Of a DNA stretch of 35,314 nucleotides, positions 1-14,715 are shown one piece after another (position 1 is the first letter of the stretch; the number at the start of each line of letters is the position of its first letter). Made by a program: the position numbers and the translations under genes. Source of the stretch: Cyanobium sp. CACIAM 14 (lineage in GTDB: Bacteria > Cyanobacteriota > Cyanobacteriia > PCC-6307 > Cyanobiaceae); assembly GCA_000708525.1 (NCBI GenBank), contig JMRP01000029.1:1-35314 (forward strand), read 5' to 3'. The notes beneath the pieces are model-generated. The model saw nothing but the letters and a program-made list of their open reading frames with translations, had not been told where the DNA came from and did no database searches.

Positions 1-410
1 GAGAGGTCGCATGTAGAGGATCTGGATATATCTGGTCCCAAGAATATGTATATGTGTGAGAGAACAGAGCAAGGGCAGTGCAGAGCGTCAGCAGAGCAGG
101 AGAACTCCGAGCATGGCTGCCGGCGCGTTGAATGGCGCTCTCGGGGGAGCAGCTGCAAAGGATGGGCTCGGGGCTTGAGGGCGACAAGGCACCCTTGAGA
201 GCCCCCATCCTCAAGGAGCCCCATTCCGATTGGGCAAGCTCTGCGGGGTGCCAGGGGGGTCCGTTCGTAGAGGCCAGACCAGCCGGTTCAGGGTGCTCCA
301 AAGGGTCCAGCAGGAGCGAAGGATGCTGCCTGCACAGTGAACAGAGCCTGCAGAGGCTGTGAGGGGTGGCCTGACAGCAGGGAAGCGAGTTGATCAGGAT
401 TCCTTATGTC

Positions 411-454
411 AGTAGTTTCCGGAATTCGTCGGAAATGGATGTCCGAAAACTACC
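411..454. repeat. Nested imperfect inverted repeat
   Basis: An outer pair of 13-base arms (411-423 and 442-454) matches at 11 of 13 positions when one is reverse-complemented. Inside it sits a perfect 6-base pair TTTCCG (416-421) and CGGAAA (430-435) around an EcoRI-type GAATTC core. This could be a protein-binding site or a cruciform. No flanking gene explains it. Confidence 0.4.
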
Positions 455-1035
455 GATGTTTTCCGTTTCTGTTGATGGGCATCAGCAGTCTACTGCTGGT
501 CAGCGGCTGGGCATCTCCATGAAGCCCTGGGGGATCGGCGCATGGGCTAGCATCCCTCTAGGCTTCATCCATACAACAGGTCATCACTAGGATGAGTGGC
601 TTGGGCGCCTGGAGCAGCACCTTCCGATGAGTGGCAACGAATAGCGCCCCCGCGAGAGACAACTCTCTTGTTGGCTCCTTGTAGAAAACAGGCACAAGTG
701 ACTATGTCCTGAGGGAGTGAAGCACATCGTTCACGAGCAGAGCATGTAGAGATAACTCTGAGTACTGCATGCAACAGGTGGTGCAACATGGGCATCCCAG
801 GTGCGTCGTTCGACCGATGGCCCCAGACTGCCCATTCTGGTCGGTGCCGCAGCAGCCTCAACAAGCCCTCCGCCTCTATGAGCCATTGCTCTGGCGAAGC
901 TGTGCCGAGAGATTCTGGCAGAGGGGGCAGTGGCGGCCATGGTTTTGACGTCGAAGCGCCGGCCCACCTTTAGCCAGCACGGGGGGCGGAGCCGTGGCGG
1001 ATCGTGATGGATAGTGACTGGTGGGTAACGGATGG

Positions 1036-1273
1036 GTGACGTCAAGAACCAAGCAGTAGCGGGGGCAGTGGTGAATGTGACGGTTTTTCCCAACCTCATT
1101 GTCCCCATACAGGGGGACTTACTCCTTGCCCACCCTGTCTGTCCCTACCTTCCTCTCCCGAGAAACATCTCAATAGAAGAAAAGCATCACATCCGTCACA
1201 ACCCTTGATCCGACTTGGATATTGACGTCACAGATGAATGCCGCACCCGTCACGCCGTGCCAGGATTCGTCAC
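1036..1273. repeat. Cluster of CGTCAC hexamers beside the primase gene (iteron-like)
   Basis: CGTCAC occurs on the plus strand at 1194-1199, 1226-1231, 1248-1253 and 1268-1273. As GTGACG it occurs at 1036-1041 and 1077-1082. Three of the plus-strand copies read CGTCACA. Six copies in under 250 bases is far above the roughly 0.1 expected by chance for a hexamer on two strands. The spacings of the right-hand copies are 32, 22 and 20 bases, close to two or three helical turns. The position directly beyond the 3' end of the replication gene suggests iterons of an origin, but this is inference. Confidence 0.4.
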
Positions 1274-1320
1274 ACCCCTTGCCACGAATCCCCCCCCCCG
1301 CTCGCAACTATGGCCCCTAG

Positions 1321-4300
1321 TCACGATGCCAGCGAATGGCCTCCAAGCTTCCGCTGCAGTGCATATCGAATCACTCCAGGGATCTCAGTGTCTTCACTTC
1401 TCCTCCGCGGACGAAGCATCGGGATCCGTGCCCCATCCCGTGTCCTGTAGGGGTGCTCGCTCATCATACCCGCCGGCAGCGGCAGACCCAACCGATCGCG
1501 CAACAGTTCCACCAGCGCGGTTTTGAAGCGCTTAAGAGACAGTTCCTTGCCTTTCAGCCCGCAAGACTCCATCCAGTCGCGGTAAGAGGTGTAAGCGAAC
1601 TTATATACCTTGAATCTCTGTGCATCGAGCTCGTAGTCCTCACCAGATGACATAGAGCCGATCTTGAGCTGGTGATATTTGCCGTACTCATTGGCGGTGT
1701 CATCGAAGATCAGATACTGCTCCGCCCAGTCCGCCAGCGGGTTGGTCAGCTCCGCATCGAACAGTGCATCCAGCTGAGCCAGCCCTCCGGGTTCCTCCAT
1801 CGCCTCCCTGGCCTCCTGGGGGTCCATGGCCAACACCCATGACACGACGGCCCCCAGCTCGTCCGCCAACTCGCCTTCCCAGTGATCGACTCGCCAGGAC
1901 AGCATGTCCCTCCGTTCCTCCAACGGGATGGGCTGATCAAGGTGGATACTCCTCCTTCGGTTGAACACCGCCGATGAGTCGTCCTTCGCCTTGACCGCTG
2001 CGTTCCCCACCAGTAGCACCAACCCGCGGAAGGTGAACTCGAACCGCTCGATCGAGTTCTTGCGCTCAGCCACGATGGTGTCCCCACCGGTGAAGGCCTT
2101 CAGTCGCTCCAGCGGTCCCGCATAGTCCTGACTCTCCGCAAACAGCAGCAGCGCCATCCCCCGCGCCTTGAAAGTCTCGAACCGCTGGTTCTTGTCTTCC
2201 ATGAGATGGAGCTGACTGCTGGCCGTACATTCCTTCCCAACAATTGCTTCCAGCAGCCGCGCCAGCACCGACTTCCCGGAGTCACCGACACCGGTCAACT
2301 CGACAAAGCCCTTGCCCCCCAGCCGCCGCAGCGCTTGTGAGCAAGCCGCCCGAAACAACCGCTGCTGATGCAGCTTTGGCAGCAACTGCTCGACGCAAGC
2401 GATGGTCTTCATGGGCAGTTCGTCCGGTCTGTACTCGTAGGGCAGCACCCAGGTGTTGCCGTACTTCCGGTCATGGGGCAGCAGCACTCCATCCGACAAC
2501 CTGACAACCCCATTCCGCATCGGCAGTACCCCGTGCTGCACCACAGGATCAAGGGACAGTGCCCGCCGCCCTGGGTGATCGCGCAACTCGGCGATCAAGG
2601 CCGTGGTCGCCTTGCTGTCAAGGGTCAGCTCGGTGCGCCATTGCATCGCCCCTACCCACCGCTGCAGAGGCTGCTCGATCGCCGTGCTCGCTTTACCCGG
2701 TAACGGTAACCAGCGATTACCCACCCATTCGTAGAGGCGATCCTCGGATCCCTCAACGACGAACCGCTCCTTGAAAACAGACCAGGCGATGGTGGCCTGA
2801 ACCGGGGTCTCCTGTTTACCGCAAGACCACTCCCACAACCACTTCTTTCTCTCACTATCCCATTTGCAGCACCTCTTCGCTCGATCCGCCAGCAGCAGCA
2901 GCGCCTCCCTTCCATGTCGTGTGAGGAAGGTGATCGGTGTATTCGCACTCGCGTCGGGGTCCAACCCACCCCGCGCCTCCGGCACCTCACAAGGCAGATG
3001 AATCAGCCGGGGCTCCCCACCACGGCCAGCAAACTTCAGTGCAATTTCTTTCAAGGCGTTCGGGACCTTCACCATCGCCCGGCTGCTCCAGCAGAGGAAC
3101 ACCGTCCGTCCCTTGAAGTCCTTGCCCTCCATCCCTTCAGCGCTGGCAAAAGCTGCAGCTACCAAGGCAGCCTTAGCCTCTTCGCTCTCCGCCCAGAACA
3201 CCGCTGTCCCCCAGTTGATTTCGGGGTTGCCGGTGACACCCAGAGCGGGAGCCTCCTCTTGAGTGGGCGCCTCCTGTGGAGGCGAAGCCACTGCCCCATC
3301 CTCCTGCTGCAGCCATGTTGAAGCCAGTGCTTTAGTCAGGGCCTGTTCCTCCTGCTTGGCATTGCGCAGCGCTACCTCAGCCCCCACCTGCTTGAACTTC
3401 GCCGCCGGTCGCCCCCAGCTCCCCTTGGCCGATTCCCCTGCATAGGCCCACCGAGTCGAAGGATCCACCTTCCCCGCGATCACATCTCCCAAGGTCAGAT
3501 CCGTCGGCGGGCTGAAGCTCTTCCCGCGGTGGCACACCACCACCACCCGATCGGTATTGTCGAAGATCGTGCAATCGGCGTCGGAATCGCGCCCACAGAT
3601 CGGGCAGGGATCTCCCTCGCCCGAATGCCACACATCACCTGCAGCGGCGCGTACCCGGCCCACCGCCTCGGACTCGGCTTTGGTGAGCTCCGGTAGCACC
3701 GCCTCAAGCTCCTCGATCGAGTAGCGCCGCTCGCGATCGGCTCCATCCAGGACCTGGGCATAGCCAATGGCCTTGCCGGCCCGCGGGTTCTCCGGCTGCC
3801 CCTTCTTCGCGGGCTTGCCGATGTAGAGCAATCCGGCCAGCCGCATCGGCTGCGACCTGCCCACTACCGCCGGGTCCGAGGGGAAGCCCGCATCGGTGGC
3901 CAGCTTCACCAGACGCCGGGCGGCCAGCTCCCCTCGCAGAGGATCCACTCCTTCGCTGAGCACCCAGTAGCTGTGGACGCTGTTCCCACCGGTCATCACC
4001 TGGAAGGTGGGCTCAGGCAGGCCCAGCACACTCCAGGCCGTGATTTGCCATTCGATCGGTTGATCGTCCCACTCAGCCCTGATCGACCTGACCTCGGTGA
4101 TCTCGTCCTTCTTATTACCGCCCGGATTTGGCAGCACAAAAACAGCAGCCCCGTGTAGCACGTACTTCGCCAGCTCTTGTGTGATGGTGTCCTCCAGACA
4201 TCGATCGCCCTCCTCGCCTTTGAAGCTGCGGCGCAGGTGAATGTCTTTCGGGTTGACGGGCACCGTTCGGAACCGCACTTCATCACGACTCAGACCCAGC

Positions 4301-4719
4301 AACTCGATGTGCCGCAGCGCCTCCTCAAGAATTATGTAAGGCTCCGGACTGAGGCCCCCTTCCTTTCTGGATTTCGCCCTTGCTGCGTCTCCCAACGGCA
4401 CATCCAAGACGGTGGGCACCAACGTGGCGGAGGGCATTTCTTTGTCTCCCGGCTGGGGGGCAACGTTCTTCGGGAGATCAATCCGGTCATTGGAGTCCAC
4501 CGGGTGAAGCCCCTTCGCTCTCCTTGCCCGGTTCGGCTGCACATCCGCCCGCAATGCCTCGGCGATGGCTGTCCACCCTTGAACGATGCTCTTGGGCTTG
4601 TTGTCTCCGGCAGTGTCGTGATCATTGCCGTCCTCGGTGTCCTCCTGTGGGCTGATACTGGGTCGCCCCATGGAGGCGTCCTCAGGAGCAGCCACGTTGC
4701 TTCGGATGAGGTCGTCCAT
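1321..4719 (-). CDS. Primase-helicase of a mobile element (AEP-type primase, zinc cluster, SF3 helicase)
   Basis: An 1132-residue replication protein. Residues 1-120 look disordered. Residues about 120-340 resemble an archaeo-eukaryotic (RepB/PrimPol-like) primase: an acidic AEWDDQP motif near 215 and an NSVHSYW (S-x-H) motif near 245. A cysteine cluster follows at about 371-398 (CPICGR ... CHRG) and is probably zinc-binding. The C-terminal part is a D5/P4-type superfamily 3 helicase: Walker A GVGDSGKS near 809, a Walker-B-like ALLLFAES near 852, and a motif-C-like LVLLVGN near 899. The start is supported by a strong GGAGGTGA ribosome site about 6 bases upstream, and overlaps the stop of a possible upstream frame (TGATG). 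Such proteins prime and unwind DNA for phage, plasmid and satellite replication. The domain reading is by motif only; confidence in a replicative primase-helicase is high. Confidence 0.88.
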   Translation of the reverse strand: MDDLIRSNVAAPEDASMGRPSISPQEDTEDGNDHDTAGDNKPKSIVQGWTAIAEALRADVQPNRARRAKGLHPVDSNDRIDLPKNVAPQPGDKEMPSATLVPTVLDVPLGDAARAKSRKEGGLSPEPYIILEEALRHIELLGLSRDEVRFRTVPVNPKDIHLRRSFKGEEGDRCLEDTITQELAKYVLHGAAVFVLPNPGGNKKDEITEVRSIRAEWDDQPIEWQITAWSVLGLPEPTFQVMTGGNSVHSYWVLSEGVDPLRGELAARRLVKLATDAGFPSDPAVVGRSQPMRLAGLLYIGKPAKKGQPENPRAGKAIGYAQVLDGADRERRYSIEELEAVLPELTKAESEAVGRVRAAAGDVWHSGEGDPCPICGRDSDADCTIFDNTDRVVVVCHRGKSFSPPTDLTLGDVIAGKVDPSTRWAYAGESAKGSWGRPAAKFKQVGAEVALRNAKQEEQALTKALASTWLQQEDGAVASPPQEAPTQEEAPALGVTGNPEINWGTAVFWAESEEAKAALVAAAFASAEGMEGKDFKGRTVFLCWSSRAMVKVPNALKEIALKFAGRGGEPRLIHLPCEVPEARGGLDPDASANTPITFLTRHGREALLLLADRAKRCCKWDSERKKWLWEWSCGKQETPVQATIAWSVFKERFVVEGSEDRLYEWVGNRWLPLPGKASTAIEQPLQRWVGAMQWRTELTLDSKATTALIAELRDHPGRRALSLDPVVQHGVLPMRNGVVRLSDGVLLPHDRKYGNTWVLPYEYRPDELPMKTIACVEQLLPKLHQQRLFRAACSQALRRLGGKGFVELTGVGDSGKSVLARLLEAIVGKECTASSQLHLMEDKNQRFETFKARGMALLLFAESQDYAGPLERLKAFTGGDTIVAERKNSIERFEFTFRGLVLLVGNAAVKAKDDSSAVFNRRRSIHLDQPIPLEERRDMLSWRVDHWEGELADELGAVVSWVLAMDPQEAREAMEEPGGLAQLDALFDAELTNPLADWAEQYLIFDDTANEYGKYHQLKIGSMSSGEDYELDAQRFKVYKFAYTSYRDWMESCGLKGKELSLKRFKTALVELLRDRLGLPLPAGMMSEHPYRTRDGARIPMLRPRRRSEDTEIPGVIRYALQRKLGGHSLAS

Positions 4720-5096
4720 CAGCGGTCACCTCCGATGGAAGAGCCTTCGGCGGCCTCGTCGAACGGTGACGGCCCAGCAGGTGACAGTGCCCTGCGCCGC
4801 ACAGGCACGAGTGGTACAACATCTCGATCACGCCACCGATTCCCGCCGCTAGCGCCTGCCCAGGCGGAGTCACTGATCCAGCAACCCATCAATCCGTAGG
4901 AGGGGATGCCGTGCCGCGGGTGACTGCTGTAGGCGAGTAGACCGCCTACTACAAGAAGGTCATGTGCAGAAAAGAGTGCCGGGAAAGCCATAACTAAACA
5001 CGATAGTTGCAGGGGGATGGTGCTCCCCGCCGTGGCCCTTCCATTTGAGCCCGAACTCGGTTCAGTTGCGCTCTCTAAAACCGTGCAACCGTGCAT
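4719..5096 (-). CDS. Possible small protein upstream of the primase gene
   Basis: This frame ends in a TGA that overlaps the primase ATG as TGATG, the arrangement expected for translational coupling. The first ATG (5096) lies inside the palindromic operator region, so the true start is more likely internal, for example at 4991 (90 codons) or 4889 (56 codons). Neither has a clear ribosome site. The C-terminal part is Arg- and Ser-rich and matches no family known to me. It may be a spurious frame. A second, 63-codon GTG-started frame at 4682-4873 in another phase competes for the same DNA. Confidence 0.25.
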   Translation of the reverse strand: MHGCTVLESATEPSSGSNGRATAGSTIPLQLSCLVMAFPALFSAHDLLVVGGLLAYSSHPRHGIPSYGLMGCWISDSAWAGASGGNRWRDRDVVPLVPVRRRALSPAGPSPFDEAAEGSSIGGDR

Positions 5097-5127
5097 TCGT
5101 GCTGACTGCGCACGGTTTGCACGGTTT
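5078..5127. promoter_or_regulatory. Palindromic double AAACCGTGC operator between primase and excisionase genes
   Basis: The left half holds AAACCGTGC (5078-5086) followed at once by AACCGTGC (5087-5094). The right half holds two GCACGGTTT copies (5110-5118 and 5119-5127), the reverse complement. The halves form an almost perfect inverted repeat of about 17 bases around a 15-base centre. A TATTAT box at 5127-5132, overlapping the last base, could be the -10 element for the rightward gene at 5186. A bound protein would then block that promoter. A further copy, AAACCGTGC at 6582-6590, lies just upstream of the integrase. Likely ligands are the excisionase-like protein, the integrase or a repressor. 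Confidence 0.6.
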
Positions 5128-5185
5128 ATTATCCTCCATCTGCAGATCCAATGGGCTCAAATATGTATGTGCCAATTCATCTGTC

Positions 5186-5485
5186 ATGCCTTCTTCTCTG
5201 ACGCCCACAGACGACATCACTCAGCTCTTCGATCTGATCAGTGCTCAGCTGAATCTGATCCAGGCGCGACTTGATCTCAAGCCCAGGCTCAGCAGCAGCC
5301 CCTGGCTGCCCCTGGCAGAGGCTGCTAGGGCCCTGCACTTTCCCAGCAGCCGTGCGCTGCGCGCCGCCATCAACCGCGGTCGCATCCCTACCCAGTTCGT
5401 GAGTGCCACAACCGGCGAGAGCGGCAAGCGGCGAACTCTCTACGTTGACGTCGAGGGTTTCGCCTCACATCTGCGCAACAAGTGA
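5186..5485 (+). CDS. Excisionase-like / helix-turn-helix DNA-binding protein
   Basis: A 99-residue protein. The chosen ATG begins MPSSLTPTDD; the frame is open further upstream to 5045, but that runs through the palindromic operator. Residues 1-35 are a probable helical lead. Residues about 36-95 resemble a MerR/Xis-type winged helix: SPWLPLAEAARAL (first helix), FPSSRALRAAINRGRIP (recognition helix and wing), then a YVDVEGFASHL end typical of excisionase-family proteins. It faces the integrase gene and the two coding ends overlap by 21 bases. The position beside integrase and primase suggests a role as recombination directionality factor or regulator. The family call is by pattern, not by a profile search. 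Confidence 0.65.
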   Translation: MPSSLTPTDDITQLFDLISAQLNLIQARLDLKPRLSSSPWLPLAEAARALHFPSSRALRAAINRGRIPTQFVSATTGESGKRRTLYVDVEGFASHLRNK

Positions 5486-6568
5486 CGCCATCGAGGCGCT
5501 GTCGAACCAGCGCTGATACAGCGATGTGTGCACCATCAACGAGTGCCCGAGGCTCTTGGCCGCCAGAGAAGGGCTGATCTGTGGGTTGTGAATCGCCCGC
5601 ACCGCCCAGGCATGGCGCAGGTCGTAGGCCAGAAAGGGCGCTCCGTATCTCTTCAGCGCCACCCCTAGCTGGGATCCCACCGTGCGGTGGTCCCGCTCCA
5701 GGTTGATGCCTGGGAGGCGCTTGTTCAGGAGCCCCCACCGCTCGATCCAGGCCTTGGGAAGGGGCAACCCCTGGCGAGCTCCTGTCTTGCCTCCCCTGAT
5801 CGCCACTAGCCCATTGCGCTGCACTTCGGCCATCAGCAGGGCCTCATGGGGCCGGGCGCCGTAGGTGGCGCAGACCCCAGCCACCCATTGCCAGCCCGAT
5901 GGCAGGGCATCCACCACCTCCACGATCATCTCATCGGCTGGGAGATCCCTCGGAGCTGGATCCTTCAGTGGGCTGTACCCCTTCCCCAGCTCCCTGAGCT
6001 GCTGCACCGCCTCCGGGCCGAGATCAAGGGCCTGGGCCACGGCCGTGGCCGCGATGGAGGCTCTTCTACGACTGCAGGTGCCAGCGGGCTTGCTTTCCAC
6101 GATCGCCTTCAGCGTCTCGATCCCCACCACCGGCTGCTCCAGCAGGGGCTGCAAAGGCAGGGCGTAGGTCGTTCGCCAGGAGACCTCGGAGCTGGGACCG
6201 CGCTTGCGCCTGCCCTGCCACCAGCTCTCGGTCCGTCGCAGGGCTTCGATGCCGCTGATGCCATTCACGGTGGCGGATGGGGCCTGCGTGGCCTGCAGCC
6301 AGCGGTCGAAGGGGAAAGGATCCAGCCCCATCCGATGCAGCTCCAGATCCCGCCCCAGCTCCTCAGCCAGCTGCCTGGCCTTGTCCACCCCATTGGGGTA
6401 GGGGAGAGACGTTGTGATCCGCCTCTGCTTCCAGCTCCCATCGGGAAGGGGGATCGTCGCCCGCAGCCGGATCCTGGAGCCCGAGGGCGACACCTCCAGG
6501 CTGACGGAGGAGCCAAGATCCCTCAGGGCCCTGTTCACCCGAGCCAGGTAGGGGTCCCGTGGAGCCAT
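5465..6568 (-). CDS. int: Tyrosine recombinase (phage-type integrase)
   Basis: A 367-residue integrase. Catalytic-domain residues are visible: Arg239 in YGARPHEALL, the beta-hairpin Lys in RGGKTGARQG near 258, Arg318 in YDLRHAW, His342 in SLGHS and the nucleophile Tyr351 in HTSLYQRW. The His-Tyr spacing of nine is canonical. The usual His of the HxxR box is replaced by Tyr315, a substitution tolerated in the family. The N-terminal 150 residues would carry the arm-binding and core-binding domains (IRLRATIPLPDGSW is a typical arm-binding strand). It would integrate and excise the element at the tRNA 3' end 130 bases upstream. No ribosome site is obvious at the ATG. Its 3' end overlaps the excisionase gene on the other strand. 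Confidence 0.93.
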   Translation of the reverse strand: MAPRDPYLARVNRALRDLGSSVSLEVSPSGSRIRLRATIPLPDGSWKQRRITTSLPYPNGVDKARQLAEELGRDLELHRMGLDPFPFDRWLQATQAPSATVNGISGIEALRRTESWWQGRRKRGPSSEVSWRTTYALPLQPLLEQPVVGIETLKAIVESKPAGTCSRRRASIAATAVAQALDLGPEAVQQLRELGKGYSPLKDPAPRDLPADEMIVEVVDALPSGWQWVAGVCATYGARPHEALLMAEVQRNGLVAIRGGKTGARQGLPLPKAWIERWGLLNKRLPGINLERDHRTVGSQLGVALKRYGAPFLAYDLRHAWAVRAIHNPQISPSLAAKSLGHSLMVHTSLYQRWFDSASMASLVAQM

Positions 6569-6574
6569 GGAGGC

Positions 6575-6635
6575 GTGCCTAAAACCGTGCCTACTTTGGC
6601 CCGAAAGTTGCCTGTTTGTGCCTAATGGGTGCCTA
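6575..6635. repeat. Four GTGCCTA direct repeats upstream of the integrase
   Basis: GTGCCTA occurs at 6575-6581, 6587-6593, 6618-6624 and 6629-6635, as two pairs with 12- and 11-base periods. A related GTTGCCTG lies at 6607-6614. An AAACCGTGC (6582-6590) overlaps the second copy. They lie between the integrase start and the tRNA 3' end, where arm-type integrase sites or accessory-protein sites of an attachment region are expected. Function is inferred. Confidence 0.55.
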
Positions 6636-6668
6636 GGACAGTGGGCGACGAATTGGACGGAAGAGTCG

Positions 6669-6693
6669 AAAACCCTGTGCTGGCAAGGGTTTT
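6669..6693 (-). terminator. Hairpin after the tRNA gene, possible terminator
   Basis: AAAACCCT (6669-6676) and AGGGTTTT (6686-6693) form a perfect 8-base stem with a 9-base loop, 6 bases beyond the tRNA 3' end. Read on the minus strand the stem ends in TTTT, so it could terminate the tRNA transcript. The GC part is short (three G-C pairs). It also lies where an integration site would extend past the tRNA. Confidence 0.45.
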
Positions 6694-6698
6694 GAGGA

Positions 6699-6723
6699 TG
6701 GGGGCCCCGGGGATCGAACCCGG
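6699..6723 (-). other. Presumed attachment site at the tRNA 3' end
   Basis: The T-arm and 3' acceptor strand of the tRNA lie nearest the integrase, the usual crossover segment for tRNA-targeting tyrosine recombinases. I looked for a second copy of this 3' end in positions 1-6600 and saw none, so the partner site is probably to the left of the window. The site is inferred from context. Confidence 0.35.
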
Positions 6724-6771
6724 CTCAGGCGAATTATGAGTTCGCTGCATTCACCAGATTGCTAGACCCCC
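6699..6771 (-). tRNA. tRNA with CAT anticodon (elongator Met, or Ile2)
   Basis: It folds as a full cloverleaf of 73 bases. The acceptor stem GGGGGTC pairs with GGCCCCC (one T-G pair) and the discriminator is A. The anticodon stem GCGAA/TTCGC has loop CTCATAA, so the anticodon is CAT (plus strand 6736-6738). The variable loop is CTGAG and the T-arm is CCGGG-TTCGATC-CCCGG. CCA is not fully encoded. The paired first base and the lack of three G-C pairs at the base of the anticodon stem exclude initiator tRNA. Elongator methionine is favoured. A lysidine-modified isoleucine tRNA cannot be excluded by eye. Confidence 0.93.
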
Positions 6772-7385: not shown

Positions 7386-7508
7386 GGGGTCTTGCGGCCC
7401 CGGCTCAGGGGCGGTTTGCCCGCAGGTTAGCGACCTCCGACGGCCTCAACCATTGCTGACGGCCTCCACCATCCCGTTCCGCCCGTGCCCGCCGATCCGC
7501 CTCCACCG

Positions 7509-8102
7509 ATGGTCACCCTGCCCTCCAGCCACAGCCAGCAGCGCACCGCCCTCCTCGCCCTGCTGGCGGAGCGGGCCTATCGACTCGGCGACTTCACGCT
7601 GGCCTCGGGCCGCCACAGCGAGCACTACGTGAACTGCAAGCCGGTGAGCCTCAGCGGCCCGGGCCTGGCCCTGCTGGGCCGCCTGATGCTGGAGCAGGTG
7701 GAGCCGGAGGCGGCCGCGGTGGCCGGTCTGACCCTCGGGGCCGACCCGCTGGTGAGCGCGGTGGCGATGCAGGCGGCATTGGATGGCCGCCCGCTCGACG
7801 CCCTGATCGTGCGCAAGGAGGCCAAGGGCCACGGCACCGGCGCCTGGCTGGAAGGCCCCCTGCCGCGCGCCGGCAGCCGGATCACCGTGCTGGAGGACGT
7901 GGTGACGACCGGCGGCTCGGCGCTCAAGGCCGTCAAGCAGCTTCAGGAGGCCGGCTACACGGTGGCCCGGGTCGTGGCCATCGTCGATCGCCAGGAGGGC
8001 GGAGCCGAGGCGATGGAGGAAGCGGGACTGGAGCTGCGCAGCCTCTTCCTTCTGGAGGAGGTGGCCGCCACGGCCGCCGGGCTGGACGGCGCGGCAGGCT
8101 GA
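7509..8102 (+). CDS. pyrE: Orotate phosphoribosyltransferase
   Basis: A 197-residue enzyme that joins orotate to PRPP to make orotidine monophosphate in de novo pyrimidine synthesis, in the cytoplasm. The PRPP-binding motif [12 protein letters not shown] spans about 127-138. The N-terminal [17 protein letters not shown] segment is typical of PyrE, and [12 protein letters not shown] carries the flexible-loop lysine region. I chose the ATG at 7509, which gives a family-like lead of about a dozen residues. An in-frame GTG at 7485 would add eight residues (MPADPPPP). It is followed after 20 bases by the ygfZ-like gene and probably shares its transcript. Confidence 0.93.
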
Positions 8103-10707: not shown

Positions 10708-12177
10708 ATGGCCTCCGCCCCCCTGCCCCTCGAGGCCGGACCGATCCACTTCGGCACCGACGGCTGGCGAGGCATCCTCGGCGTGGACATCACCATGGAA
10801 CGGCTCCTGCCGGTGGCGGCCGCGGCCGCCAGGGAGCTGGCCGCCAGTGCCCCCGCGGACCTGACCAGCCGGGAGGTGGTGATCGGCTACGACCGGCGCT
10901 TCCTGGCACCGGAGCTGGCCGAAGCGATCGCCGCGGCCGTCCGCGCAGCCGGGCTGGTGCCGCTGCTGGCGGCCAGCCCCGTGCCCACACCGGCCTGCAG
11001 CTGGGCCGTGGTGGAGCGGGGCGCCCTGGGCGCCCTGGTGATCACCGCCAGCCACAACCCGCCGGAATGGCTGGGTCTGAAGATCAAGGGGCCCTTCGGC
11101 GGCTCGGTGGAGGGCGATTTCACCGCTCGGGTGGAGACCCGTCTGGCAGCGGGCGGCATCAGCGTGCCGATCCCCGGCCCCACCGAGCGCTTCGATGCCA
11201 TGGGCACGTACCTGGCGGGGCTCGGCGCCAAGATCGACGGGGCGGCTCTGGCGAAGGGCCTGGCGGCCATCGGCCTGCAGGTGATCGTGGATCCGATGCA
11301 CGGCTCCGCCGCCGGGGGACTGCCGGCGCTGCTGGGGGAGGCCGGCCGGACCTCCGGCGTGATCCGGGAGATACGCAGCGAACGGGATCCGCTCTTCGGC
11401 GGCCATCCGCCCGAACCGCTGGCGCCCTACGTGGAGCGGCTGATCGCCGAGGTGCGGCGCGAGACGGCGGCGGGGCGGCCGTCGGTGGGCATCGTCTTCG
11501 ACGGCGACGGCGACCGCATCGCGGCGGTGGACGAGCAGGGCCGCTTCTGCAGCACCCAGCTGCTGATGCCTCTGCTGATCGATCATCTCGCCCGGGCCCG
11601 CCGGCTCGGCGGCAGCGTCGTGAAGACCGTGAGCGGTTCCGACCTGATGGCACTGGTGGCGGAGGACCTCGGGCGGGAGGTGATCGAGATGCCGGTGGGC
11701 TTCAAGTACATCGCCGCCGAGATGCTGAACGGTGATGTGCTGGTGGGGGGCGAGGAATCGGGCGGCGTGGGCTTCGGCATCCACCTGCCGGAACGGGATG
11801 CCCTGTTCGCCGCCCTGCTGCTGATCGAAGCGCTGGTGGAGGGGGGGCTGCCGCTGGGGGCGCGGCTGGAGGCCCTGCAGCAGCGCTGCGGCGGCGCCAG
11901 CGTCTACGACCGCCTCGATCTGCGCCTGCCGGACATGGCCAGCCGCGGCCGCCTGGAGGCGCTGCTGGCCCAGGAGCCGCCGCAGGAGGTGGCCGGGGCG
12001 GCGGTGCTGGAGGTGAATCGCACCGATGGCGTCAAGCTGCGGATGGGCCCCAGCCACTGGCTGATGCTGCGCTTCTCGGGCACCGAACCGCTGCTGCGCC
12101 TCTACTGCGAGGCCCCCGACGACGAGCGGGTGCAGGCGGTGCTCGACTGGGCGCGGCAGCTGGCCGAGAGCATCTGA
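10708..12177 (+). CDS. Phosphoglucomutase/phosphomannomutase family protein
   Basis: A 489-residue alpha-D-phosphohexomutase. It shows the four family motifs: the phosphoserine loop TASHNP (Ser115), the metal loop DGDGDR (265-270), the sugar-specificity loop GGEESGG (about 347-353) and the phosphate-binding loop RFSGTEP (455-461). It interconverts hexose 1- and 6-phosphates and so feeds glycogen or cell-surface sugar synthesis. GEESGG fits phosphoglucomutase/phosphomannomutase use, but specificity cannot be fixed from sequence. The frame is open far upstream through the nuclease antisense, so I took the ATG at 10708 (MASAPLPLE), where family similarity begins (FGTDGWRG). rdgB starts 21 bases downstream. 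Confidence 0.92.
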   Translation: MASAPLPLEAGPIHFGTDGWRGILGVDITMERLLPVAAAAARELAASAPADLTSREVVIGYDRRFLAPELAEAIAAAVRAAGLVPLLAASPVPTPACSWAVVERGALGALVITASHNPPEWLGLKIKGPFGGSVEGDFTARVETRLAAGGISVPIPGPTERFDAMGTYLAGLGAKIDGAALAKGLAAIGLQVIVDPMHGSAAGGLPALLGEAGRTSGVIREIRSERDPLFGGHPPEPLAPYVERLIAEVRRETAAGRPSVGIVFDGDGDRIAAVDEQGRFCSTQLLMPLLIDHLARARRLGGSVVKTVSGSDLMALVAEDLGREVIEMPVGFKYIAAEMLNGDVLVGGEESGGVGFGIHLPERDALFAALLLIEALVEGGLPLGARLEALQQRCGGASVYDRLDLRLPDMASRGRLEALLAQEPPQEVAGAAVLEVNRTDGVKLRMGPSHWLMLRFSGTEPLLRLYCEAPDDERVQAVLDWARQLAESI

Positions 12178-12198
12178 TGCCGGCGGCCCCGCACCCGG

Positions 12199-12834
12199 AT
12201 GCCCACCTCCCCCAGCGTGCTCGTGATCGCCAGCGGCAACGCCGGCAAGATCAGGGAGTTCGCCCACCTGCTGGCGTCCCTGCCGCTCACGCTCCGGCCC
12301 CAGCCGGACGACCTGGAGGTGGAGGAAACGGGCGACAGCTTCGCGGCCAACGCCCGCCTCAAGGCCGAAGCGGTGGCCCGGACCACCGGGGAGTGGGCCC
12401 TGGCCGACGACTCCGGTCTGGCGGTGGAGGCCCTGGGCGGGGCCCCCGGGGTCCACTCGGCCCGCTACGCCGACAGCGACGCGGCCCGGATCGCCCGTCT
12501 GCTGAGGGAACTGGATGACGCCGGCCGGGAGCGGGCGCAGCGGGGCCTGCCGGCCGATCGCCGGGCGGAGTTCGTGGCGGCGCTGGCGGTGGCCGACCCC
12601 AGCGGAGCCCTTCGCCTGGCGGTGGAGGGCCGCTGCGCGGGAGAGATCCTGGAGACCCCGCGGGGCAGCGGCGGCTTCGGCTACGACCCTGTGTTCCTGG
12701 TGCCGGAGGCGGGACTCACCTATGCGGAGATGGACAAACCGCTGAAGAGCCGCCTGGGCCACCGGGGCAGGGCGTTCGCCCTGCTGGAGCCCCAGCTGCG
12801 CCGGTTGCTCGGGGTCCCCGGCGGCTCCGCCTGA
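12199..12834 (+). CDS. rdgB: XTP/dITP diphosphatase (RdgB/HAM1)
   Basis: A 211-residue house-cleaning nucleotidase that hydrolyses ITP, dITP and XTP to monophosphates and keeps deaminated purines out of nucleic acids. The N-terminal SGNAGKIREF (12-21) is the phosphate-binding motif. DDSGLAVEALGG (from residue 70) carries the catalytic acidic residues, and FGYDPVFLVPE and SRLGHRGRAF are conserved C-terminal blocks. Length and motif order are normal for the family. It is probably co-transcribed with the upstream phosphohexomutase and is convergent with the YciI-like gene. Confidence 0.93.
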   Translation: MPTSPSVLVIASGNAGKIREFAHLLASLPLTLRPQPDDLEVEETGDSFAANARLKAEAVARTTGEWALADDSGLAVEALGGAPGVHSARYADSDAARIARLLRELDDAGRERAQRGLPADRRAEFVAALAVADPSGALRLAVEGRCAGEILETPRGSGGFGYDPVFLVPEAGLTYAEMDKPLKSRLGHRGRAFALLEPQLRRLLGVPGGSA

Positions 12835-13233: not shown

Positions 13234-14715
13234 CTAGGCCGCCACCCAGCTGCCGTGGAGCCCGTGGGGAATGGCGAGCGGCAACTCCAGCACGGCCTGC
13301 TCCCGCATCGTGGCGGCCTCGAGGATCACCAGGTCGCTGGCGCAGCGGGCCCCGTTCCACACCAGGTCGAGCACCCAGCCGTCATCCTCGGCGGCAGCCC
13401 CGGGACGGGGCACCATCACCGGCTCGCTGACGAAACCTCGGGGCGCGGCGCTCCAGAGCCGCTGCTCGCCGCTGACCAGATCGAGCTTCATCAGGGCCTG
13501 CAGCGGGTCGTTGCCCCGTTCTCGCTCGGCCACCGCCATCCAGGCGTGGCGGCTCTCCAACCCCACCCGGGCGGGGGGAACCATGGCGAACTCACAGGTG
13601 CGTTCGCTCAGCCGGGTGGTGGTGACGCGGCCCGTGGCGAGATCGAGGCGGGAGCGCTCCAGCAGGCCCTCGGGGATGCGCTCGAAGTCCACCTCCCGGA
13701 AGTCCTGGTCCGGCCCGACCGAGGGGAAGTCGGCGTAGACGATGCTGTCGATCACCACCGCGCCGCCGTCCTCCCAGGCGTTGAGGTGATGGAAGACGAA
13801 ACCTTCCGGCGCCTCGAGCCGCCGCGGTGGCTGTCCGCCGAAGGCACCGTCCCGGCGGGGAATCAGCCAGTACTCGCCCCTGGCACCGGGCCGGGATTTC
13901 AGGCACTGGGCGGCCCCCTTCAGACCCAGCACGTAGGGAAGGGGGTTGAAGTCGATGGCGTTCCGCAGAAACACCGCCCAGTTGGGGGTGATGGCGAAGT
14001 CGTGCAGGAAGGCGAAGCCCGGGAAGGCGTGGCGGCTGTCGGCGATCAGGCGTCCGGCGTCGGGCCCGGCGGCCTCGAATTCCATCAACCGGATCGTGCT
14101 GCGGGGGCCCGCCTTGACGCCGAAGGTCACCATGCGCGGAGAGCCGTGGTGGCCGGGGTCGAAGCGGGGGTGGGCGCTGAAGGCCTCGCCTGGGGCAAGG
14201 ACGCCGTCGAGGAGGGTCAGGCCGCGGGTCTCGAGGCTGACGGGATCGAGGGCATGCGGGGAGCTGGCTTCCCAGAGCGCCAGCAGCTGGTCGCCGAGAC
14301 GCACCACATGGGTGTTGGCGATGTTCTTGAGCCGCAGGTCGAAGGCATTGGCCAGCGGGCCGCCGGGCTTGGGCGTGCCGAACACGCCCCGGTGGAGGAA
14401 CCGGCCGGCCTGCTCCTCGGCCCGCCAGCCTTCGGTGCGCACGAAGCGGTTGCTGAGCCGGGCGCCACCCGCCTCGAAGCGCAGGGCCGTGATCATCCCG
14501 TCGCCGTCGAAGGGGTGATGGACCCATTGGCCGGCTCGCTCGAGACGACCGGGACCGTTGCGGTAGAGGCTGCCGCTGAGCTCCGTGGGGATGGCGCCCC
14601 GGGAGGCGACGACGGGCACGTCGCTGAGCTCCTGGCTCACGTTGCGGAAGGCGCTTGCCCAGTCGGCGCGGTCGTAGGCCGACGGAGCAGCGGCGGGAAC
14701 GGGAGCAACGGTCAT
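13234..14715 (-). CDS. Carotenoid oxygenase (apocarotenoid 15,15'-oxygenase type)
   Basis: A 493-residue member of the RPE65/carotenoid cleavage dioxygenase family, non-heme iron enzymes that cut carotenoids or apocarotenoids to aldehydes such as retinal. The four iron-ligand histidines can be placed in FSAHPRFD, FLHDFAIT, FHHLNAWED and the C-terminal IPHGLHGSW. GSLYRNGPGRLE and HHPFDGDGMI near the N-terminus are strongly conserved blocks. The length is normal. Substrate and cleavage position cannot be read from sequence. A 9-base-pair hairpin lies just upstream of the start and may act in the 5' leader. The neighbouring upstream gene on the same strand is a small exported peptide. Confidence 0.92.
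   Translation of the reverse strand: MTVAPVPAAAPSAYDRADWASAFRNVSQELSDVPVVASRGAIPTELSGSLYRNGPGRLERAGQWVHHPFDGDGMITALRFEAGGARLSNRFVRTEGWRAEEQAGRFLHRGVFGTPKPGGPLANAFDLRLKNIANTHVVRLGDQLLALWEASSPHALDPVSLETRGLTLLDGVLAPGEAFSAHPRFDPGHHGSPRMVTFGVKAGPRSTIRLMEFEAAGPDAGRLIADSRHAFPGFAFLHDFAITPNWAVFLRNAIDFNPLPYVLGLKGAAQCLKSRPGARGEYWLIPRRDGAFGGQPPRRLEAPEGFVFHHLNAWEDGGAVVIDSIVYADFPSVGPDQDFREVDFERIPEGLLERSRLDLATGRVTTTRLSERTCEFAMVPPARVGLESRHAWMAVAERERGNDPLQALMKLDLVSGEQRLWSAAPRGFVSEPVMVPRPGAAAEDDGWVLDLVWNGARCASDLVILEAATMREQAVLELPLAIPHGLHGSWVAA

Follow-up and report, generated by a model that had tools for sequence, protein, structure and literature searches.

A probable tycheposon-like island at tRNA-Met(CAU) of Cyanobium sp. 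CACIAM 14, its replication core and its sister elements

What kind of element lies against the tRNA gene near the left end of contig JMRP01000029.1 (C29) of Cyanobium sp. CACIAM 14? The stretch analysed, hereafter the window, comprises 35,314 nucleotides of this 3.21-Mb, 71-contig genome (G000 in the coordinates below), and its positions 1–6771, the left end of the contig, hold a tRNA-CAU gene, a tyrosine recombinase (integrase), a 99-aa protein and a large primase-helicase. An earlier note, made from the sequence alone, had described the region as a compact, self-replicating integrative element that fits phage satellites or tycheposons. The evidence assembled here makes it very probable that the region belongs to a mobile, tycheposon-like, self-replicating cargo island at tRNA-Met(CAU), which carries a phage-related integration module and is not a compact satellite.

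Two ends of an integrated element

The tRNA-CAU gene (6699–6771, minus strand), called as tRNA-Met by ARAGORN, is intact and marks the integrase end of the element; its 3′ end faces the integrase open reading frame (ORF; 5465–6568, minus strand). The attachment (att) core of 45 bp, reaching from the anticodon loop to the tRNA 3′ end (6697–6741), recurs with 44 of 45 bases identical on contig C16 (G000:C16:55787-55831, equal to L051 15788-15832), the single difference being at position 6705. With up to three mismatches allowed, a 31-mer of the core occurs only twice in the genome.

We compared the C16 locus with eight loci of seven relatives (G022, G008, G006, G004, G013, G017 and G019). C16 is collinear with the first six of these and the alignment stops at the last base of the att copy; both G019 loci failed to align, and at tRNA-Met in G019 lies another member of the window integrase's family. 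To the right, the sequence from the att piece into pyrE (7485–8102), among the chromosomal genes beyond the tRNA, is continuous in the same six relatives. Because both flanks are continuous there, the tRNA-Met(CAU) site is uninterrupted, and thus empty, in six of the seven relatives compared, as is expected of a tRNA-targeting integrative element. The second att copy is not a chance match, being nearly identical and lying exactly at the synteny break. Together with the uninterrupted sites, the att copy and the collinearity break indicate an integrated element whose integrase end lies in the window and whose opposite end lies on C16. The element is accordingly flanked by direct repeats of the tRNA 3′ end, as tRNA-targeting tyrosine recombinases leave them, with the DNA between them not fully assembled.

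The base at position 6705 gives the two copies a polarity. It is C in the window copy and T in the C16 copy as well as at each of the ten loci examined in nine relatives; as the relatives' T occurs only in the C16 copy, the 3′ end of the tRNA in the window is probably element-borne and the C16 copy the displaced original. The two element pieces have GC contents of 61.6% and 59.6%, the adjacent chromosome 69.8% and 70.8%.

Contig C16 extends 1.9 kb past the att copy, and this element end encodes a 405-aa ORF (ORF405) without a Pfam match and without a match among plasmids. When 40 genomes including its own were searched, three matched: its own, G022 (39%, whole length) and G024 (a short piece). 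In both sister elements described below, in G022 and in G095, an ORF405 homologue lies at the end away from the integrase. The C16 end and the start of the window share no exact overlap of 10 to 150 bases that would join them. The element of this genome is not shown to be compact, because C16 adds at least 1.9 kb and the bounded sister elements reach 46.5 and 48 kb; the word "compact" of the earlier note was therefore dropped. Its other statements about the locus stand: the tRNA 3′ end facing an integrase (supported by the ARAGORN call and by the active site and predicted fold given below), a second copy of that 3′ end to the left, a left end outside the window, now located on C16, an integrated element with its own replication protein, and the empty sites in close relatives that it had proposed to look for.

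The left part of the region (1–1320) holds no convincing gene and is a possible origin or regulatory region. Its bases 1–496 match at 89% a stretch on contig C15 that adjoins the DUF932 module of a different element, so that a DUF932 module may sit just left of the window; a second such module was not found in this genome. Among the ORFs scanned in positions 1–6771 (six against Pfam, four against PHROGs), none matched capsid, lysis or conjugation families, in line with the earlier note.

Integration module and replication protein

Profiles recognise the 367-aa integrase only weakly (Pfam E 0.23; PHROG integrase family phrog_1 E 1e-3), and it has no match in the INPHARED phage collection. Its active site is that of a tyrosine recombinase: an alignment of the protein with 13 others from IMG/VR, 14 sequences in all, shows R239, K261, R318, H342 and Y351 without variation, and Y315 occupies the position where His is usual. 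The predicted model (predicted local distance difference test score, pLDDT, 84.8) matches the fold of lambda integrase, with a best E of 3e-5. By identity, the closest integrases are those of G019 and G021 (78% both, also at tRNA-Met), followed by a tRNA-Leu group at 71–73% and G020 at 54%. In a tree of 16 integrases, three of them without a known tRNA, ten tRNA-Met users split from three tRNA-Leu users (support 95/91), and the window's integrase branches off first within the tRNA-Met side (93/89). Near tRNA-Met, three genomes carry broken or partial members of this integrase family (G002:C82, G021:C4 and G024:C29; G024 also has a left-end homologue on C34), which probably remain from earlier integrations there.

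The 99-aa ORF (5186–5485, plus strand) converges on the integrase gene, the 3′ ends overlapping by 21 bp. Its predicted model (pLDDT 77.9) has a long helix followed by a winged-helix-like part; a fold search gave no significant match, the non-significant hits being mostly MarR-like, and the PHROG recombination directionality factor family matches at E 0.14. As no fold match is significant, the label of candidate excisionase or regulator rests on position, and of the "excisionase-like protein" in the earlier note we retain the winged helix-turn-helix-like ORF beside the integrase, an excisionase function being only suggested. Homologues 81–90% identical occur at six other element loci, closest in G022 (90%) and G095 (86%) with the other four at 81–84%, and one of 43% in G020; none was found at the loci with broken integrases. 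A 76% identical protein of this type is also encoded on a 10.5-kb viral-class contig (L178 528-821, IMG/VR 3300042554_003122), without the other core proteins sought.

The replication protein (1132 aa; 1321–4719, minus strand) joins an archaeo-eukaryotic primase (AEP) domain to a superfamily 3 (SF3) helicase, as the earlier note had proposed. Residues 125–296 match the AEP domain of PDB 6zp9_A at E 2e-19, the C-terminal half matches D5_N (PF08706) and DUF5906 (PF19263) above the Pfam cut-offs, and a Cys-rich, zinc-knuckle-like stretch was recognised by eye between the two halves (residues 372–396). PDB 6ZP9 is the PrimPol of cyanophage S-2L (PMC8065100). Four of its residues discussed in the part of that paper available to us, E85, D87, D88 and S116, stand opposite E216, D218, D219 and S247 in our reading of the alignment, which assigns no counterpart for D146; a homologous AEP domain with catalytic motifs is thus present. 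Unlike the S-2L PrimPol, the AEP domain here is fused to a D5_N/DUF5906 SF3 helicase and lies on an integrative element. The SF3 region resembles the P4-type primase-helicases (TIGR01613, E 4e-20), but at 71.9 bits it stays below that family's cut-off of 108.7, and the AEP half resembles the S-2L PrimPol.

Homologues of this protein are 79% (G022) and 78% (G095) identical, across two genera. Among 300 sampled members of the primase family, 89 match at E ≤1e-3, those matching near full length coming only from this genome, G022 and G095. Scanning genome contigs and IMG/VR with the primase, alone and as a three-row alignment, found no close relative, a pattern scan being no proof of absence; the single IMG/VR hit is 26% identical and lies in the helicase region. 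With the integrase nearest to G019 and G021, and the 99-aa protein and primase nearest to G022 and G095, a module break may lie near the integrase border.

These genes also bear on whether the island still moves. If it were an old integration, now fixed and immobile, the broken and partial integrases in G002, G021 and G024 would find a ready parallel; however, the reading frames of the three recognised core genes are open, a single base separates the att copies, the catalytic residues of the integrase are kept and the replication protein is 78–79% identical across two genera, and we regard a stable island as improbable.

Bounded sister elements and their cargo

In the closed genome G022, an ORF405 homologue lies 45 kb from tRNA-Leu(UAA), which is followed by homologues of the integrase (71%), the 99-aa protein (90%) and the primase (79%). 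An exact 58-bp repeat, consisting of the tRNA-Leu 3′ part plus one base, stands at 3247273-3247330 and 3293826-3293883, 46.5 kb apart. The flanks meet at this repeat in four of the five loci compared (G017, G008, G004 and G006); in the fifth, that of the CACIAM 14 genome, the alignment covers the left flank and the repeat, and the right flank picks up again after about 1.9 kb. The G022 element is thus a bounded element of 46.5 kb. In G095, a member of another genus, the primase (78%), the 99-aa protein (86%), a DUF932 protein (92%) and a 405-aa homologue (32%, residues 69–404) accompany a different integrase; a 44-nt exact copy of the tRNA-Pro(UGG) 3′ end at 51946 and the full tRNA-Pro at 100135-100208 lie 48.2 kb apart. 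The same core thus occurs with different integrases at tRNA-Met, tRNA-Leu(UAA) and tRNA-Pro(UGG), and is exchangeable among integrases.

Of the 53 ORFs that a simple script called in G022, 34 were scanned (32 together and ten singly, two of these new); the G095 scan took in 38 of the 43 ORFs with 100 aa or more. The families considered are the best 25 of the 38 (G022) and 35 (G095) PHROG families and of the 51 and 42 Pfam families matched. The G022 cargo comprises an RND efflux system, a multicopper oxidase, two P-type ATPases, two MerR regulators, a two-component pair and Nramp, together with an IS1595-type transposase, AbiTii, and PADLOC hits to SIR2-type defence. The metal genes of G095 are largely the same, and they are accompanied by an ArdC-type anti-restriction protein and transposases. 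Among the best 25 families of each list, none in either element belongs to head, tail, packaging or lysis functions; the best 25 PHROG families for 32 G022 and 38 G095 ORFs, like the visible part of the CACIAM 14 element, include none for capsid remodelling or packaging.

Size and cargo of this kind would also suit an integrative element spread by conjugation, either mobilizable or conjugative, as would the ArdC-type protein of G095, since such proteins are often found on conjugative elements. Yet the best 25 of the 51 and 42 Pfam families listed for the two sister elements include neither a relaxase nor type IV secretion (an origin of transfer, oriT, was not sought), and transfer by conjugation appears very unlikely.

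Contigs C62, C48, C10 and C58 of the CACIAM 14 genome hold pieces similar to the G022 cargo; on C62 (L118, G000:C62:1-10182) these are stretches 70–80% similar to the multicopper oxidase, EamA and other cargo. Contig C62 may be part of the missing middle of the element, but we assign none of the four to it because nothing joins them to it. The genome also holds one further island and possibly another. A second element on contig C15 (L019 6095-17885, G000:C15:21094-32884) has the DUF932 module, a distant integrase, a 1005-aa replication protein with Prim-Pol, AAA_25 and zinc-finger matches, and a conserved 63-bp piece that contains a tRNA-Pro 3′ part and matches no Rfam family above that family's own threshold. 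A type I restriction gene adjoins it (L019 2066-4522), with related loci in G006 (C45, twice). A locus on contig C59 (L020, G000:C59:1-12543), with a PrimPol-like match (1547-1930), a distant integrase match (3185-3967) and tRNA-Arg(UCU) (4502-4575), is possibly a third island. Among the chromosomal genes to the right within the window, an ARAGORN call of a transfer-messenger RNA (11941–12515, minus strand) overlaps a long opposite-strand ORF with similarity to phosphoglucosamine mutase and is probably false; a gene resembling carotenoid/lignostilbene cleavage dioxygenases (13234–14715, minus strand) has NCBIfam matches below cut-off.

Phage connections and nearest known islands

A scan of IMG/VR, whose viral contigs come from environmental samples, with the integrase alignment returned 39 loci, eight of them 68–69% identical over nearly the full length. 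Twelve loci were checked for tRNA genes: six (L139-L144) have a 44–47-nt tRNA-Met 3′ piece upstream of the integrase gene, resembling an attP, two (L145, L146) have a full tRNA-Met adjoining the integrase, and four have neither. The best 45-mer in each of the eight loci L139-L146 differs from the window core at four positions, compared with 20–21 for three shuffles of one locus. The flank of L146 past the tRNA resembles these host genomes over short stretches (70–78%, some including the tRNA); L145 is not clear in this respect. Six of the related IMG/VR integrases are adjoined by counterparts of the 99-aa protein with 41–52% identity. On L142, the one locus of L139-L146 examined for virion genes, three of ten ORFs scanned match tail families, the best a lambda J-like central tail fibre (E 2e-140), and two match replication initiation and Erf-like families. 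The eight loci are probably temperate tailed phages using the same tRNA-Met attachment site.

How far does this relationship reach? A phage satellite, that is a self-replicating island packaged by a temperate tailed phage with the same tRNA-Met site and a related integrase, would account for the shared attachment core, for the phage-like integrases beside it and for the tail proteins of L142. The likeness is confined to one module: of the element's proteins, only the integrase and the 99-aa protein have close counterparts in the phage stretches compared, and outside that region no 17-mer, sought as a hint of packaging-site piracy, is shared (up to 10 kb each side). The satellite reading is further weakened by a primase represented in IMG/VR by the one 26% hit and by the lack of packaging or capsid-remodelling genes among the families listed for both sister elements. 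At 46–48 kb, these are also larger than most known satellites. The AbiTii and SIR2-type hits in G022 are candidates for phage interference. On balance we consider a satellite rather unlikely, and give a similarly low probability to the broader idea that such islands swapped in the integration module of a lambda-like temperate cyanophage and excise and travel with phages, as large self-replicating satellites spreading metal resistance among picocyanobacteria. Transfer of the island by a helper phage is possible.

A defective prophage that has lost its structural genes could likewise have an integrase and att core in common with phage contigs. None of twelve L142 proteins matches the host-genome loci compared, so the replication and left-end genes do not come from the L142 phage; moreover, the sister elements are bounded and filled with cargo, with no head, tail or lysis function among the best 25 PHROG families listed. 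A prophage remnant is extremely unlikely.

The preferred reading, a mobile tycheposon-like island, is not without difficulties. The middle of the element is unassembled, so its size and cargo were not read in this copy and a tandem of elements may occur; no circular form, reads or transfer were seen; and positions 1–1400 contain short two-copy repeats but no convincing iterons or tandem repeats of an origin. The bounds of the G095 element are drawn from the tRNA-Pro repeats. G095 retains the 99-aa protein next to an unrelated integrase, a pairing that speaks against a dedicated excisionase of the window's integrase. Finally, plain identity places this integrase nearer to the tRNA-Leu integrases (71–73%) than to those of the phages (68–69%).

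Tycheposons are presented, in the portions accessible of the reports concerned, as tRNA-bordered cargo islands with a tyrosine recombinase (PMC10872708, PMC11389934, PMC10803314, PMC10187409, PMC10654061, PMC12416821, PMC11481560), with a size range of 4–200 kb and tRNA-Met among the tRNAs quoted (PMC10872708). The element agrees with these descriptions in its tRNA-Met border, its tyrosine recombinase, the size range and probably the same broad host group; cargo was seen in the G022 and G095 sister elements, the middle of the CACIAM 14 copy being unassembled. Homologues from cyanobacterial plasmids and cyanophages, alongside many from other hosts, are among the database hits and hint at the host, which is very probably a picocyanobacterium. 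It departs from the tycheposons as quoted in that one core occurs with three integrase types, and in that the cargo of the sister elements consists of metal resistance, defence or anti-restriction genes and insertion sequences rather than the nutrient genes reported. By anatomy, a putative assignment to the tycheposon class is reasonable. Of the two affinities named in the earlier note, tycheposons or phage satellites, the former thus fits in anatomy; for the latter we found no feature of packaging, capsid or helper dependence, the phage link consisting of the integrase, the 99-aa protein and the att core.

A preprint describes, as far as its excerpts go, islands of picocyanobacteria that sit at tRNA-Phe or tRNA-Cys and have a novel integrase, and it mentions a small serine recombinase (PMC10187409). 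Likened by description, these share a profile-poor tyrosine integrase, clades that follow the tRNA target, and the character of variable islands carrying cargo; unlike them, the elements here target tRNA-Met and tRNA-Leu, and a small serine recombinase is not among the families listed. The freshwater Synechococcus siphovirus S-LBS1 has an integrase and lysogeny potential, and the 14-base att motif proposed for it lies in phage genes and is not described as a tRNA end in the excerpt at hand (PMC6157547), in contrast to the 45-bp tRNA-end core here. Among the papers listed from the literature searched under the terms tried, none described these elements, and in the sources as excerpted the nearest known kinds are the tycheposons and the islands of PMC10187409.

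We propose that the tyrosine recombinase, of a phage-related family, would recombine the 45-bp tRNA core with the same core on a circular form of the element, rebuilding the tRNA with the element-borne 3′ end and displacing the original 3′ end to the far side, on C16. Excision would be carried out by the integrase with an accessory factor, after which the PrimPol-SF3 protein could prime and unwind the circle, so that the element would copy itself. For this copy we infer excision, circularisation, autonomous replication, cargo and any route between cells.

The locus bears on how islands are exchanged among small cyanobacteria and offers a testable chain: one replication core, three interchangeable integrases with their tRNA targets, bounded sister elements carrying metal resistance, and phage contigs with a matching att core. 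With it, phage-mediated movement of such islands becomes directly testable in culture.

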